Below are positions 2,487 to 8,247 of a stretch of 64,000 nt of DNA, in pieces (position 1 is the stretch's first letter; each line of letters opens with the position of its first letter). The stretch is from Nocardioides caldifontis (GTDB taxonomy: Bacteria; Actinomycetota; Actinomycetes; Propionibacteriales; Nocardioidaceae): assembly GCF_008087345.1 (NCBI RefSeq), contig NZ_VHIB01000001.1, positions 1,116,001-1,180,000 of the forward strand. The letters run 5' to 3'. Under the pieces are notes generated by a model that was not told where the DNA came from, searched no databases, and saw only the letters and a list, made by a program, of their open reading frames with translations. The position numbers and the translations under genes are program-made.

Positions 2487-3938
2487 CTACCAGCTCTCGA
2501 CGGTCTCCGGCGCGGCTGCGTGCGCGACCCTGCCGACGGTCAGCGGGTCCACCTTGCGCACGTCGACCACGTAGCCGGTCCCGGGGGACAGCAGCGTGTC
2601 CAGCGCCGCCTCGGCCACCGCCGTCGACTCCAGCAGGGACCCGGCCGGCTCCTCGCCGAACGCCCGGGTGCGCATCGGGGTGCCGGTGCGCTCGGGGTTG
2701 ATGCAGTTGACCCGCACCCCGTCGCCGGCCCACTCGTCGGCGAGCGCCTGGGTCAGGTTCACCACCGCGGCCTTCGCCGAGGAGTAGAGGCTGTAGCCGC
2801 TGCGCCCCCGCGTGTAGGACGACGAGGTGAACAGCAGCAGGCTGCCGCGGGTCTCGCGGAGGTGCGGGAAGAACTCCTGGGCGATCAGCACCGGAGCCAC
2901 GTAATTGACCTCGGTGGCGTGGAAGATCGTCTCCTCGGAGGCGTCGACCAGCGACCCCCGCGGCAGGGTGCCGGCGGTGTTGACGACGTAGTCGATGCGG
3001 CCGTGCTCGGCGACCACCGCCTCGGCGGCCGCGCGCACGTCCTCGCGCCGCTCGACGTGGGTGCGGGTGGTCGAGCGGCTGAACGCGCAGACGTTGGCGC
3101 CGAACCGGGCCGCCAGCGAGGCGATGTCGGCGCCGATGCCGTAGCTGCCGCCGAAGACGACGAGAGTCTTGCCGGCCAGCGCCTCGCGGTACCCCTCCTC
3201 GTCGTGCTCCTCGGGGGAGATCCGGCTGGTGAGCTGGAACAGCTTGTCGGCGAGGTAGAGGTCGATCGGCTCGGTGACCTTCATGTTCTGCTCCTCGCCG
3301 CGCACCACCGTGATCGGCACGTCGGGGAGGTAGCGGAGGACGACGGTGCAGTCGTCGGTGGCCTCGAACGCAGGGTCCTGCCGCGCCCGCGCGTACGCCT
3401 CCCGGATGGTGGAGAGGCGGAACGCCTGCGGCGTCTGGCCGCGGCGCAGCGACGCCCGCCGCGGGACCGCGGCGATGGTGTCCTCCTCGGTGACCTCGAT
3501 GATCGTGTCCGGGGACGGGATCGCCACGTCGACCGCGTCGTACCGGTCGAGCGCGGCGACGCAGTCGTCGATGATCCGCGGGGACACCAGCGGCCGCACC
3601 GCGTCGTGGAGGAGCACCTTGTGGTCGCCCTCGCCGAGCGCGTCCATCGCGTCCAGCGCCCGCATCGTGGTCTCGCTGCGGGTCGCCGCGCCCTCGAGGA
3701 CCTGGCGGACCTTGGCGTAGCCGCCGTCGCGGACCATCGCGCGCACCGCGTCGAGGTGGCCCGGCGCCATCAGCACCACGACGTCGTCGATCGCCGGGTG
3801 CGCGTCGAACGTCGCGAGCGTGTGCTCCATGATCGGTCGGCCGGCGATCTTCACCAGCTGCTTCGGGAGGTCCAGCCCGACTCGGGTCCCCACGCCGCCG
3901 GCGAGGAGGACGGCGACGTTCCTACGTGCTCCGGACAT
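2487..3938 (-). CDS. bifunctional IspD-like cytidylyltransferase / SDR oxidoreductase (CDP-ribitol or related CDP-polyol synthesis)
   Basis: The 483-residue protein joins two enzymes. Residues 1-240 form an IspD/TarI-type cytidylyltransferase, with LLAGGVGTRVGLDLPKQ (11-27) and the HDAVRP motif (111-116). Residues 255-483 form a short-chain dehydrogenase with GGSYGIG (263-269), a catalytic Ser near 373 and YSSAK (Tyr385, Lys389). The same domain order is known from Haemophilus Bcs1, which reduces a pentulose phosphate and activates the polyol as CDP-ribitol. A role in teichoic-acid-like or other polyol phosphate polymers is therefore likelier than isoprenoid synthesis. The ATG at 3938 opens the nucleotide-binding strand directly. 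The region upstream holds three tandem hairpin repeats. Confidence 0.85.
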   Translation of the reverse strand: MSGARRNVAVLLAGGVGTRVGLDLPKQLVKIAGRPIMEHTLATFDAHPAIDDVVVLMAPGHLDAVRAMVRDGGYAKVRQVLEGAATRSETTMRALDAMDALGEGDHKVLLHDAVRPLVSPRIIDDCVAALDRYDAVDVAIPSPDTIIEVTEEDTIAAVPRRASLRRGQTPQAFRLSTIREAYARARQDPAFEATDDCTVVLRYLPDVPITVVRGEEQNMKVTEPIDLYLADKLFQLTSRISPEEHDEEGYREALAGKTLVVFGGSYGIGADIASLAARFGANVCAFSRSTTRTHVERREDVRAAAEAVVAEHGRIDYVVNTAGTLPRGSLVDASEETIFHATEVNYVAPVLIAQEFFPHLRETRGSLLLFTSSSYTRGRSGYSLYSSAKAAVVNLTQALADEWAGDGVRVNCINPERTGTPMRTRAFGEEPAGSLLESTAVAEAALDTLLSPGTGYVVDVRKVDPLTVGRVAHAAAPETVESW

Positions 3939-3958: not shown

Positions 3959-4102
3959 CACATCGGGCCGAGCGTGTCGGCGAAGCCGCCACGCTGCCGG
4001 CCGGGCCACATCGGGTCGAGCGTGTCGGCGAAGCCGCCACGCTGCCGGCCGGGCCACATCGGGTCGAGCGTGTCGGCGAAGCCGCCACGCTGCCGGCCTG
4101 GC
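3959..4102. repeat. three tandem 48-base repeats, each with a hairpin
   Basis: Three nearly identical 48-base units start at 3959, 4007 and 4055. Each holds an 11-base-pair stem with one mismatch and a GAA loop (3971-3995, 4019-4043, 4067-4091; arms AGCGTG.CGGC and GCCG.CACGCT). They fill the gap between the end of the nuoD-like gene and the start of the cytidylyltransferase gene, both on the minus strand. They could act as stacked terminators for the former or as part of the leader of the latter. The unit length is a multiple of three, but no gene needs to read through. Confidence 0.9.
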
Positions 4103-4117: not shown

Positions 4118-5275
4118 CTACTTGTCGATGTCGCCGACGACGAAGAACAGCGAGCCGAGCACCGGGACGAGGTCGGCGACGGTCGCGCCGCGGAGCAGCG
4201 CCGGGAGTGCCGAGGCGTTGTTGAACCCGGGGGAGCGGAGCTTGAGCCGCCACGGCGTCTTCTCGCCGTGGGAGACCAGGTAGTAGCCGTTGAGCCCGCC
4301 GGGGCTCTCGGTCCAGGCGTACGTCGCCCCCTCCGGCGCCTTGACGATCTTCGGCAGCCGGACGCCGAGCGGGCCGGGGGGCAGCGAGCGGAGCCGGTCG
4401 ACGCCCTGCTCGACGAGGTCGAGGGAGACGGCGACCTCCTCGACGAGCACCGCGAAGCGGGACCAGGCGTCGCCGCCGGTGCGGATCGGCACCGCGACGT
4501 CGAGCTCGGCGTAGCCGAGGTAGGGCTCGTCGCGGCGCAGGTCGAGGTCGAGCCCCGAGGCGCGGGCGACCGGGCCGCTGACCCCGTGGTCGAGGGCGGC
4601 CTCGCGGGTGAGGACACCGACGCCCCTCGTCCGCTGCTCGAACAGCGGCTCGGCGAGCGGCTCCCGGAGCCGGGGGAGGGCCGCACGGAGCCCGGCGACC
4701 GCGGTGCCGACCCCGTGGAGCCACCCGGCCGGCAGCTCCTCCTTCACCCCGCCGACCCGGTTGAACATGAAGTGCATCCGGCCCCCGGTCAGCTCCTCCA
4801 TGAGCCCGAGCAGCGCCTCGCGCTCGGGGAGCACCCACCGCGGCGCCTCGCCGATCTCCGGCGGGTAGGTGCCGAGGAACAGCAGGTGGTGGAGGACCCG
4901 GTTGAGCTCGGCGAGGACCGTGCGCAGCCACACCGCCCGCGGCGGGACCTCGATGCCCAGCATCCGCTCGACGGCGAGCACCACCCCGAGCTCGTTGGCG
5001 AAGGCGCTGAGCCAGTCGTGGCGGTTCACGAGCATGACCACCTGGCGGTAGTCGCGGGCCTCGAACAGCTTCTCCGCACCCCGGTGCAGGAACCCGACCT
5101 CGGGTTCGCACGCGGTGATCCGGTCGCCGTCGAGCGCGAGCCGGAGCCGCAGCCCGCCGTGGGTGGAGGGGTGGGACGGGCCGAGGTCGAGGACGAGGTC
5201 GGGCGCACCCTCGCCGGACGGGGCCGCCGCCGCGGGGCCCACGGCGACGGTCAGCGCGCGGGTGCTCGGGGTCAC
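4118..5275 (-). CDS. stand-alone NuoD-like (49 kDa / NDUFS2 family) subunit
   Basis: The 385-residue protein belongs to the complex I 49-kDa / [NiFe]-hydrogenase large subunit family. It has [14 protein letters not shown] near the N-terminus (31-44), FLHRGAEKL (62-70), a central [10 protein letters not shown] helix, and a C-terminal ...GDIDK like that of NuoD. No other nuo gene is nearby, so this is not the housekeeping operon. It carries HRG where the recalled M. tuberculosis operon NuoD has HTG. The start was set at GTG 5275 because translation from there gives the usual short N-terminus; the frame stays open to 5572 but only antisense to the next gene. Its redox partner and whether it joins complex I are unknown. 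Confidence 0.88.
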
Positions 5276-5348
5276 CTGCCGATCATCCCCCACAGCCCCG
5301 CTGGTGCCGGGGGCGCGTCGTCGGTACGGCCTCCTAGGCTCGACGGTG

Positions 5349-5846
5349 ATGGACGACCTCTTCCGCTCCCCGACCGGTGCGTGGCACCGCGTCTCGCCCC
5401 GCCTCGCGGCCCTCCGCCGCTGGCTCCTGCTCGGCTGGGTCGCGGTCGCCGTGGTGGCCGCGGTCGTGGTCCTGGCGGTCGCCGGCCTCCTCCCGCCGGC
5501 CTGGGTCCTCGTGCTCGCGTTGCTGCTGGTGGCCGCCGCCACCGCGTCCGCGTGGTGGGGGATCGGGCGCAACGTCGCGCGGTGGGGCTACGCCGAGGAG
5601 CACGAGGAGCTCCTCATCGTGCGGGGTGCGGTCTTCCGCCGGCTGGTCGTGGTGCCCTACGGGCGCATGCAGTACGTCGACGTGGCGGCCGGGCCGCTCG
5701 ACCAGCTCGTGGGGATCGCGAAGGTGCACCTGCACACCGCGAGCCCCGGCACGACCGCGGTCATCCCCGGCCTCCCGGCGGACGAGGCGGCCCGGCTGCG
5801 CGACCGGCTGACCGCCCTCGGCGAGTCGCAAGCGGCGGGGCTGTGA
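5349..5846 (+). CDS. PH-domain membrane protein, YdbS-like
   Basis: The protein is 165 residues long. It has two membrane helices (about 27-48 and 52-69) followed by a bacterial PH (bPH_2) domain, recognisable by the [19 protein letters not shown] strand pair and the [12 protein letters not shown] strand. An HTASPGT segment follows. It is the small member of a YdbS/YdbT-type pair, since the next gene is a larger PH protein whose GTG overlaps this stop codon. The first codon may be the ATG at 5349 or the GTG one codon earlier. The gene is divergent from the NuoD-like gene across 73 bases. The function of these membrane PH proteins is not established. Confidence 0.85.
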
Positions 5847-7315
5847 CCGACCCGTTCCCGGAGCAGCACCCCGCTCCTGTCGAGGACCCGGGTCCGGGCA
5901 CGGCTCACGGCGCTCCTCCCGGTCCGGAGGCGCCTGAGTACCGCCGGCTCTCGCCGCTCACCCCGGTCGTCCGGGCCCCGATCGTCCTCCTCGCCGTGCT
6001 CGGTGGCTCCTGGCAGCAGATACTCACCGAGGGACGGCTCGGCTTCGTCGCGCTCGCGCTGCTGGGGCTGCTGGCCGCGGGTGCGGTCTACGGGGTCGCC
6101 TCCTGGCTGCGCACCAAGTACTGGATCCGCGACGACGAGCTCCGCATCGACACCGGCGTGGTCTCGCGCCAGTCCCGCCGGATCCGGATCGACCGGCTTC
6201 AGGGCATCGACATCGTGCAGCCGCTGGTGGCCCGCTTCTTCGGGCTCGCGGAGCTGAAGCTCGACGTGGCCGGCGGCGACCGCGAAGGGTCGCTGGCGTT
6301 CCTGCCGCACCGTGAGGCGCTGGAGCTGCGGGCCCTGCTCCTCGAGCGGCGTGACGAGCTCAAGGGAGCCCCGGCACCCCAGTCCGTGACCTGGCCCCGG
6401 GCCGACGCGCCGCCCCTCTCCGGCCGGGCCGACCGGGCTCACGGGGAGCGGCCGCTGGGCAGGCTCGACCCCGGGCTGCTGGTCGCCAGCCTGGCGCTCT
6501 CCAGCGAGATGCTCTGGGTGGCCGGCGCAGCGATCGGGCTCGCGGTCTCGTTCGTCGCCCTCGGCTCGTTCGCCGCGGTCGGCGGCATCGTGCCGGCCCT
6601 GCTGGCGCTCGCGGTCGCGCTGGGCCGCAAGTTCACCGGCTACTACGGCTTCCGGCTCTCGGAGTCGGTGGAGGGGCTCCACGTCCGCCGCGGCCTGACC
6701 GCGCTGTCCAGCCAGACGATCGCGCCGGCCCGCGTCCAGGGGGTCGCGGTGCTCGAGCCCGTGCTGTGGCGGCCGTTCGGCTGGGCTCGGCTCGACGTCT
6801 CGGTCGCCGGCTACCGCACCGGCGAGGGGGACTCCGCGCAGGCGTCGTCGACCTTGATGCCGGTCGCACCGAAGGACGAGGTGCTCGCGCTCGCCGCCCA
6901 CGTGCTGCGGGGCCGCGACGCCCGCCATGTGAGGCTCGCGCCGCCGCCCGCACGGGCCCGGTGGCTCGCGCCGTTCACGGCCTGGACGCTCGCGGCGGGC
7001 ACCGACGAGCAGCTGGTCGTCAGCCGCCGCGGGTTCTGGGTGCGCCGGGTCGACGTCGTCCCCCACGCCCGGGTGCAGTCGGTGCGCGTGACACAGGGAC
7101 CGCTGCAGCGGTGGCTCCGCCTCGCCGACGTCCACGTCGACAGTCCGCCCGGGCCGGTGCACGTGCGGGCGCGGCACGTCGACCCCGTCGACGCGCGGGC
7201 GTTCACCGAGGCGCTGCTGGTGGCCGGTCGGGTCGCACGGCGCGCCGGGGCCGACGCGCTCGGTCAGCCGGCGGGCCAGGGGTCGACGCCGCCGACCCCG
7301 GAGACCACCCAGTAG
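5843..7315 (+). CDS. PH-domain membrane protein with repeated bPH_2 domains, YdbT-like
   Basis: The 490-residue partner of the preceding gene begins with a Pro-rich segment of about 30 residues. A pair of membrane helices (about 45-80) precedes a first PH domain (YWIRDDELRIDTGVV, SRRIRIDRLQGIDIVQP). A second helix pair (about 210-255) precedes a second PH domain (FRLSESVEGLHVRRG, TIAPARVQGVAVLEP). A third, degenerate copy lies near the C-terminus (LVVSRRGFWVRRVDVVPHARVQSV). This threefold layout is typical of YdbT. The start GTG overlaps the upstream stop as GTGA, so translation is coupled. Its 3' end overlaps the convergent methyltransferase gene by 52 bases. Confidence 0.88.
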   Translation: MTDPFPEQHPAPVEDPGPGTAHGAPPGPEAPEYRRLSPLTPVVRAPIVLLAVLGGSWQQILTEGRLGFVALALLGLLAAGAVYGVASWLRTKYWIRDDELRIDTGVVSRQSRRIRIDRLQGIDIVQPLVARFFGLAELKLDVAGGDREGSLAFLPHREALELRALLLERRDELKGAPAPQSVTWPRADAPPLSGRADRAHGERPLGRLDPGLLVASLALSSEMLWVAGAAIGLAVSFVALGSFAAVGGIVPALLALAVALGRKFTGYYGFRLSESVEGLHVRRGLTALSSQTIAPARVQGVAVLEPVLWRPFGWARLDVSVAGYRTGEGDSAQASSTLMPVAPKDEVLALAAHVLRGRDARHVRLAPPPARARWLAPFTAWTLAAGTDEQLVVSRRGFWVRRVDVVPHARVQSVRVTQGPLQRWLRLADVHVDSPPGPVHVRARHVDPVDARAFTEALLVAGRVARRAGADALGQPAGQGSTPPTPETTQ

Positions 7316-8247
7316 AAGGTGCCGAGCCCCCCGGCCGCGGTGAGGTCGGCCACCCGGGAAGCCCGGGCCAGCCGTGCGGCGTACTCCCCGGGGTCGGTGG
7401 TGGCGAGGGAGAGCGGCGGCCGCTCGGCCGAGAGCCCCAGCGCAGCCAGGGCCTCACGCTGGCGCAGCACCCGGCCGCCGACGGCCGCGGCGACGCTGTC
7501 CACCGCCACGGCCGCGGTCACGTCGCGGGAGCCGTCCGGCACCGGGTCGACCTCGCGGCCGTCGGCGTAGCCGCGCAGCGCGCCGTACGGCGGCCGCTGC
7601 TCACGGGTGTGGCCGTAGTCGACCGCGACCGCCACCCCGCGGCCGAGCCTGGCGACGACCCCGGCCCACCCCTGGTCGCGGCTGCTCCCCACCTCGGCAC
7701 GCGCGCCAGGTTCACGCCCGGCCAGCGACCACCACCGGTCCAGCCAGCCGCCGACGGAGGCCGGGACGCCGGGATCGTCCACGGCCAGCCCGAGGGACTC
7801 CCGGCCGGTCGCAGGGTCGACGTGCACCATCCGCGGCCGCCCGGCACCGTCGACCTCGACCACGTGGCAGGGGATGTTGTCGAGCCACTCGTGGGCGACC
7901 ACCAGCCCGTCGATCCGCTCGGGCAGGGCGGCGGACCATCCGACGGCGTCCGGCAGCCCGGGCGGGAGGGGCGCGACCTCGACGGCCAGGAGGTCGAGCG
8001 TCGGGTCGAGCCGGTGCAGCCCGAGGAGGAGCTCGCCCCGTCCCGCGCCCACGTCGACGACGCGGGTCAGCCCGTGGTGCCGGGCGAGCCCGAGCAGCGC
8101 CTCGGCCAGCAGGTCGGAGCCGTGAACGGAAGTGCGGAAGTGGTCGGCCGGGGCGTGGTGGCGGTAGAAGCCGTCCGGTCCGTAGAGCGCCGAGTCCCAC
8201 GCCGTCCGCCACGGCGGGTCCGGTGTGCGGGGCGGCACGGCTGGCAT
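7264..8247 (-). CDS. MidA/NDUFAF7-family SAM-dependent methyltransferase
   Basis: The 327-residue protein belongs to the DUF185 / MidA family of class I methyltransferases. Residues around VVDVGAGRGELLLGL form the SAM-binding loop, and DGLVVAHEWLDNIPCHVVEVD is the family's hallmark (NE/HE-W-LDN-P). VAVDYGHTREQRP and the GALRGY segment follow. Its mitochondrial relative NDUFAF7 methylates an arginine of the NDUFS2 subunit of complex I, and a NuoD/NDUFS2-like gene lies about 2 kb away here. The ATG at 8247 is preferred; a GTG at 8265 in the same frame is possible. The last 52 bases overlap the convergent PH-domain gene. Confidence 0.85.
   Translation of the reverse strand: MPAVPPRTPDPPWRTAWDSALYGPDGFYRHHAPADHFRTSVHGSDLLAEALLGLARHHGLTRVVDVGAGRGELLLGLHRLDPTLDLLAVEVAPLPPGLPDAVGWSAALPERIDGLVVAHEWLDNIPCHVVEVDGAGRPRMVHVDPATGRESLGLAVDDPGVPASVGGWLDRWWSLAGREPGARAEVGSSRDQGWAGVVARLGRGVAVAVDYGHTREQRPPYGALRGYADGREVDPVPDGSRDVTAAVAVDSVAAAVGGRVLRQREALAALGLSAERPPLSLATTDPGEYAARLARASRVADLTAAGGLGTFYWVVSGVGGVDPWPAG

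Follow-up and report, generated by a model that had tools for sequence, protein, structure and literature searches.

A lone NuoD of Actinomycetes as the probable D subunit of an NADH-module-free second complex I, with a probable MidA-type methyltransferase

In the window—the whole 64,000-nucleotide stretch of Nocardioides caldifontis DNA analyzed here (assembly GCF_008087345.1, contig NZ_VHIB01000001.1, positions 1,116,001 to 1,180,000)—a lone nuoD-like gene, nuoD2 (4118..5275, reverse strand), lies 2 kb from midA (7264..8247, reverse strand), which encodes a MidA/NDUFAF7-family SAM-dependent methyltransferase. Plausible start codons for the two genes are GTG at 5275 and ATG at 8247, and between them two membrane proteins are encoded on the forward strand (5349..5846 and 5843..7315). 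A preliminary description had recognized this arrangement, and its gene identifications hold: both forward-strand products match Pfam bPH_2 (hereafter, the PH pair), the 327-aa methyltransferase has the MidA fold and matches PF02636 (54.3 bits; cut-off 23.3), and the 385-aa NuoD2 matches Pfam Complex1_49kDa (215.7 bits; cut-off 24), with direct reading of the sequence placing Arg65, the predicted methylation site, in an HRG motif (H64-R65-G66; codons 5078..5086, reverse strand).

Against TIGR01962, the orthodox NuoD equivalog, NuoD2 scores 343.4 bits, below the cut-off of 459.35, and it is thus a divergent NuoD, other than the standard NADH-dehydrogenase type. Its sequence contains none of the CxxC nickel–iron ligand motifs of hydrogenase large subunits. 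At the quinone site, His39 (Nqo4 His38) is retained and is invariant in the aligned set, and the alignment places Trp88 (codon 5012..5014, reverse strand) at the position of a quinone-site Tyr (Nqo4 Tyr87). This replacement occurs in 32/32 aligned NuoD2 proteins, and the acceptor may therefore be something other than quinone.

The AlphaFold model of MidA (pLDDT 94), a protein to which a VIA-align second look was also applied, matches the structures of the Burkholderia COG1565 protein, Dictyostelium MidA and R. palustris 1zkd (Z 26.5–30.1; next family, Z 13.0). The SAM loop and the motifs [NH]E-x-L-D, D-Y and G-x-x-D-x-T are all present. Motif I, the SAM-binding glycine loop G67-A-G-R-G71 (8035..8049, reverse strand), is conserved in actinobacterial and canonical MidA, and G67/G69/G71, E120, D123, D210, Y211, G239, D242 and T244 are conserved among 101 aligned sequences. 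A 2018 study, to go by its title, reportedly ties MidA to a proteobacterial origin.

In a gap-free alignment, Arg65 of NuoD2 falls on residue 118 of the mouse NDUFS2 precursor, which we take to be mature Arg85 given a 33-residue presequence; the earlier placement of NDUFS2 Arg85 in the HRG motif agrees with this. The aligned counterpart in T. thermophilus is Nqo4 Thr64, and the operon NuoD of the window genome itself (contig C1:1195465-1196331) reads GYLHTGIEKN, i.e., HTG, so that in this organism HRG is restricted to the lone NuoD—a comparison that the preliminary description had proposed. His-Arg is invariant in 77/77 named NuoD2 orthologues, and every NuoD2 read has Arg at position 65. Operon NuoD, by contrast, carries HTG in 9/9 cases and its paired operon NuoB carries Arg (also 9/9), whereas NuoB2 has Thr in every copy read, where the same cell's ordinary NuoB has Arg. 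The result is a reciprocal swap: NuoD-Thr with NuoB-Arg in the operon pair, and NuoD2-Arg with NuoB2-Thr, the latter as in mitochondria. The swap Arg of operon NuoB corresponds to Nqo6 R83; this residue and the HRG Arg fill the same space (PMC8042128). This pattern points to NuoB2 as the partner of NuoD2, with which it would pair physically, and the swap around cluster N2, long discussed as a factor that sets the stability and potential of N2, can be studied here as a clean experiment of nature.

The distribution of the two genes links MidA to NuoD2. Among 198 genomes of the class Actinomycetes (with 14 control genomes from outside Actinomycetota), 80 have both the lone NuoD and MidA, 7 and 3 have only one of them, and 108 have neither (p~1e-42); counted by family, the figures are 26/2/2/10 (p=4.5e-6). 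All same-contig nuoD2–midA pairs (67/67) lie within 10.9 kb of each other in several geometries, with a 4 bp overlap of midA and nuoD2 in Streptomyces and Catenuloplanes. The co-occurrence is thus well beyond chance, and the pair stays linked through rearrangements. Together with the MidA fold and with an Arg that is invariant in lone NuoDs vs Thr in operon NuoDs, these data support the methyltransferase–substrate pairing suggested earlier. Loss of Arg65 in MidA-less NuoD2 lineages would be the most powerful evolutionary argument for the pairing, but it was found in none of them (families f48, f52 and part of f49; six reduced genomes), so this Arg serves more than methylation. MidA presence predicts Arg only weakly in single-NuoD genomes of other classes (7/8 with MidA vs 9/12 without), and the only NuoD found in one MidA-positive genome (G282) is of the HTG type. 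The HRG Arg is unmodified in E. coli and modified in P. denitrificans (PMC3750175), and we found no MidA in the E. coli genome.

As judged from sequence, the lone NuoD is NuoD2 and supplies the D (49-kDa) position of Nuo2, a second Nuo complex that lacks NuoEFG. In other classes of Actinomycetota, nuoD2 sits inside nuoA2B2C2D2H2I2..L2M2N2, with MidA directly after nuoN2 in two classes, and in the tree the lone NuoDs form one clade separate from NuoD1, with NuoD2 of the window grouping with these in-operon NuoD2 proteins. In the class Actinomycetes, nuoD2 and midA departed jointly from the nuo2 operon, and MidA then accompanies nuoD2 and not B2-C2-I2. The preliminary placement of the protein outside complex I is contradicted by this ancestry: it is the D subunit, encoded away from the operon, of a second complex I-like enzyme. 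Across the 198 genomes, NuoD2 and NuoB2 are both present in 78, single in 9 and 4, and both missing in 107. The Streptomyces-type nuo2 locus is without nuoD, with C and L homologues detected there, and the NADH-module-free subunit set is present both in Streptomyces-type genomes (D remote) and in other-class genomes. KorAB adjoins nuoB2 or sits near it. The electron donor of Nuo2 is probably ferredoxin, which has been proposed as donor of 11-subunit complex I-like enzymes (PMC11238625).

Of Nuo2, the window genome retains only B2-C2-I2, encoded about 103 kb away, and D2. This genome has a single NuoA and a single NuoH and no second NuoL/M/N (the main operon and Mrp are the sole sources of antiporters), so its Nuo2 parts alone cannot make up an ordinary pumping complex, and Nuo2 would either share the main complex I's membrane arm or act as a soluble iron–sulphur module.

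With the family assignment, co-occurrence, linkage, descent from the operon and Arg/Thr swap established, we consider it likely that NuoD2 is the D subunit of an NADH-module-free Nuo2 and that MidA is its dedicated Arg65 methyltransferase. Methylation of Arg65 is strongly implied: MidA would dimethylate this residue in the HRG loop before assembly, as NDUFAF7 does for Arg85 of NDUFS2, and the modified Arg would pack against cluster N2 of NuoB2, which bears Thr in place of the Arg of ordinary NuoB. More tentatively, one cell might run two complex I chemistries: in the ordinary one NuoB would carry the N2-flanking Arg, unmethylated, and in the second, fed by ferredoxin, NuoD2 would carry it, methylated by MidA. 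In reduced genomes, NuoB2-C2-D2-I2 might then be a peripheral arm that can be exchanged and that docks on the membrane arm of the main complex.

MidA could also serve Nuo2 through NuoB2, NuoC2, NuoI2 or another residue of NuoD2, or as an assembly chaperone that does not methylate Arg65, and the retention of Arg65 where MidA is lost is compatible with this, as is the tracking of nuo2 as a whole by MidA, which closes the nuo2 operon in some classes. We regard such a role as improbable, though worth keeping in view, because it is the displaced nuoD2 and not B2-C2-I2 that takes MidA along (with gene overlap in some species) and because a known MidA relative targets exactly this Arg (PMC3829151). 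It is rather unlikely that B2-C2-D2-I2 in the window and other reduced genomes is a decaying relic without a respiratory role: while the missing membrane arm, the long branches of the reduced clade in the NuoD tree and the failure to find MidA in 7/29 reduced vs 0/53 full genomes would fit decay, the window genome preserves the N2 ligands, the two 4Fe-4S motifs of NuoI2 and, in NuoD2, HPSTHG and HRG, and many families have kept this same four-gene core.

A role for NuoD2 as a replacement D subunit in the ordinary 14-subunit complex I, which would thereby become a hybrid, would suit the single membrane arm of the window genome, and hybrid nuo/nuo2 machinery has been proposed for Streptomyces (PMC9239103); yet NuoD2 co-occurs with NuoB2, and its combination with NuoB1 would put two Arg at N2, which makes this very unlikely. 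We give next to no credence to the membrane-linked module outside complex I that the preliminary description had proposed, in which the PH pair would tie NuoD2 to the membrane. The PH genes do lie between nuoD2 and midA in the window, and the pair is present in 26/77 named NuoD2 loci, but genomes without NuoD2 also have PH homologues, several genomes with NuoD2 have none, and NuoD2 belongs to the nuo2 operon in other classes. Lacking constant co-occurrence, both PH proteins are judged neighbours outside the system.

Its pairing with NuoD2 assigns a specific predicted substrate to actinobacterial MidA and opens this bacterial enzyme, so far poorly understood, to direct tests, in a cell that allows side-by-side comparison of methylated (predicted) and unmethylated complex I types. 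Bacterial dimethyl-Arg of NuoD has been reported for Paracoccus only (PMC11522691). With NDUFAF7/MidA and NDUFS2 Arg85 (mitochondria; P. denitrificans NuoD Arg65), the NuoD2 system shares a MidA-fold enzyme and an HRG-bearing NuoD-family substrate, and, as in mitochondria, the HRG Arg would contact an N2 carried by a Thr-type NuoB/NDUFS7. Unlike the mitochondrial pair, it belongs to a second, NADH-module-free complex, its MidA is genetically linked to the predicted substrate, and the same cell's ordinary complex I has the Thr/Arg alternative: the Thermus/mycobacterial-type operon NuoD (HTG) is a same-genome paralogue in which Thr replaces Arg, with a compensating Arg on NuoB. The Streptomyces nuo2 cluster (SCO4599-SCO4608) is the same second Nuo system; it was described as incomplete, with NuoD among the missing subunits and its function unclear (PMC9239103), and the missing D is here identified beside MidA. 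The 11-subunit enzymes (D. hafniense, cyanobacterial/chloroplast NDH) likewise have NuoABCDHIJKLMN without NuoEFG, but in the class Actinomycetes D is encoded elsewhere, the quinone-site Tyr has become Trp, and the window genome keeps only B, C, D and I.

The lone NuoD-like gene (4118–5275, minus strand; 385 aa), the MidA-like methyltransferase gene (7264–8247, minus strand) and the pair of bPH_2 membrane proteins encoded between these genes were all confirmed as real in this 4.8-Mb actinobacterial genome (contig C1:1116001–1180000). At this locus, the nearest named relative, with 72% identity, is an uncultured Nocardioidaceae bacterium. The preliminary description placed the NuoD-like protein outside complex I, a reading not borne out by its relatives. 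In other classes of the phylum, orthologues at 43–52% identity occupy the D position (C2-[D]-H2) of an intact operon for a second complex I-like enzyme, Nuo2 (whole locus read in eight cases, flanks in 19); no nuoF match was seen at these loci, and at two of them (L266, L268) MidA directly follows nuoN2. In a tree of 125 NuoDs, the lone proteins form one clade that adjoins in-operon NuoD2 and lies far from the main-operon copies (NuoD1). The nuo2 locus read in one Streptomyces-type genome holds A2, B2, C2, H2, I2, K2, L2 and M2, and no D gene was found in it. Together, the operon position, the tree and this D-less locus identify the lone gene as nuoD2, displaced from nuo2 along with MidA. A second group of families (f47, f82, f86), with displaced nuoD2 and MidA nearby but without fol/pan neighbours (L217, L220, L221, L223–L228, L231, L233), probably represents an independent displacement. 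The bPH_2 pair, once suggested as membrane partners of NuoD2, was rejected as such and judged to be unrelated neighbours. Three near-perfect 48-bp tandem repeats (3959–4102) separate the nuoD2 stop from the start of a neighbouring ispD-like gene (2487–3938, minus strand), whose 483-aa product by eye joins an IspD-like cytidylyltransferase to an SDR-type reductase domain and resembles bifunctional ribitol-phosphate enzymes of the TarI/TarJ or Bcs1 type.

A NuoB-family search of eight lone-NuoD genomes returned more than one match in each, and the extra matches, when their loci were read, included a nuoB2-nuoC2-nuoI2 set (a few were hydrogenase-type). A NuoB2 profile matched 82 of the 198 genomes of class Actinomycetes and co-occurred with lone NuoD (both 78, NuoD only 9, NuoB2 only 4, neither 107; p = 2.5e-39). 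For MidA, the predicted co-occurrence was found. Full-length lone-NuoD orthologues (39–66% identity) are present in 85/198 genomes and MidA (PF02636) in 79/198, with 74 genomes holding both at first count (Fisher p = 8e-36). Reading the 16 apparent exceptions showed that four "NuoD-only" genomes do have an adjacent MidA gene and that two "MidA-only" genomes have NuoD at the edge of a contig, giving a corrected table, in which some genomes are incomplete drafts, of both 80, NuoD only 7, MidA only 3 and neither 108 (p = 8e-43). The three remaining MidA-only cases all end at contig edges; among the NuoD-only remainder, six genomes have divergent NuoDs with no MidA seen, and the seventh is an incomplete draft. 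Counted by family, the association holds (both 26, single 2 and 2, neither 10; p = 4.5e-6), and within the window's own family both genes are absent from 15 relatives. In one genome with MidA (G282), only an HTG NuoD was seen.

All 67 same-contig pairs lie within 10.9 kb. MidA is upstream and co-directional in 54 of them, downstream and convergent in 11, and upstream on the opposite strand in 2; thus, the linkage has outlasted repeated rearrangement. MidA lies within 10 kb at 64 of 77 named loci; contig ends truncate most of the rest. At loci including those of Streptomyces niveus and Catenuloplanes japonicus, the end of midA shares 4 bp with the start of nuoD2, an arrangement that usually signals translational coupling.

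NuoD2 Arg65, the predicted methylation site, aligns without gaps to residue 118 of the mouse NDUFS2 precursor, which we take to be mature Arg85 given a 33-residue presequence, and to Thr64 of Thermus thermophilus Nqo4. As anticipated, the operon NuoD of the same genome, 75 kb away, has HTG in place of HRG. The NDUFS2 HRG arginine and T. thermophilus Nqo6 R83 fill the same space beside cluster N2, and T. thermophilus NuoD has Thr at the HRG-Arg position (PMC8042128). Operon NuoB Arg75 of the window genome corresponds to Nqo6 R83 (gapless alignment), and operon NuoBs have this Arg (AGRVS) in 9/9 sets examined, with HTG in 9/9 matching NuoDs (eight genomes, the window genome counted twice: L004, L060). 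Every NuoB2 copy read has Thr instead (SGTVT or AGTVT), as does NDUFS7, while His-Arg occurs in all lone NuoDs (about 48 sequences in one set, 77 in the named-loci set). By these alignments, each such genome carries both Arg/Thr solutions, a pattern that predicts docking of NuoD2 on NuoB2. MidA-less single-NuoD lineages of two families (f50, f57; L249–L257) mostly have HRC rather than HRG, i.e., a Cys beside the N2-contacting Arg.

An AlphaFold prediction for the window MidA (pLDDT 94.4) resembles Burkholderia COG1565 structures, Dictyostelium MidA and R. palustris 1zkd (Z 26.5–30.1; next structural family 13.0), and the protein shares the conserved motif residues of canonical MidA. Residue 246 is Ala in the window and His in about 90% of class relatives (T-A-H-V motif). 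The NuoD2 model (pLDDT 83.7) resembles the 49-kDa subunits of complex I, with the HRG loop (residues 64–66) among its least confident parts, as would be expected if the loop were ordered only by its NuoB partner; before assembly, it could be accessible to MidA.

The window genome belongs to the lower-scoring NuoB2 group (n = 29), in which 26/29 genomes have at most one NuoH and 22/29 have MidA; in the high-scoring group (n = 53), 45/53 have at least two NuoH genes and 53/53 have MidA. It encodes a single NuoA and a single NuoH, its only antiporters are those of the main operon and Mrp, and it retains NuoC2, all N2 ligands of NuoB2 and both 4Fe-4S motifs of NuoI2. About 103 kb separate its B2-C2-I2 set from nuoD2; across such reduced genomes, this set tends to sit just downstream of main-operon nuoN. 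In four genomes (G105, G096, G018 and G000; L064, L065, L068, L070), genes for a 2-oxoacid:ferredoxin oxidoreductase (KorAB) are adjacent or close to nuoB2; we infer ferredoxin as electron donor, with KorAB as candidate source. The acceptor may differ, since an invariant Trp (Trp88; 5012–5014) replaces the quinone-site Tyr of NuoD.

In the open-licence literature, we found no report of a MidA-linked NuoD as the missing D of nuo2, nor of an Arg/Thr swap within one genome. Mammals, Pichia and Paracoccus carry a dimethylated HRG arginine, but in E. coli this residue is unmodified (PMC3750175), and the human methyltransferase is NDUFAF7 (PMC3829151). E. coli, which did not figure among the MidA-bearing controls, likewise keeps the arginine, and since Arg is invariant in NuoD2 even in lineages without MidA, the residue serves some role besides methylation. 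Elsewhere, complexes that lack NuoEFG have been described (PMC11238625). The Streptomyces nuo2 cluster, for which a hybrid machine was proposed, has been described without NuoCDEFG and L and with unclear function (PMC9239103), whereas the Streptomyces-type locus read here includes both C2 and L2.
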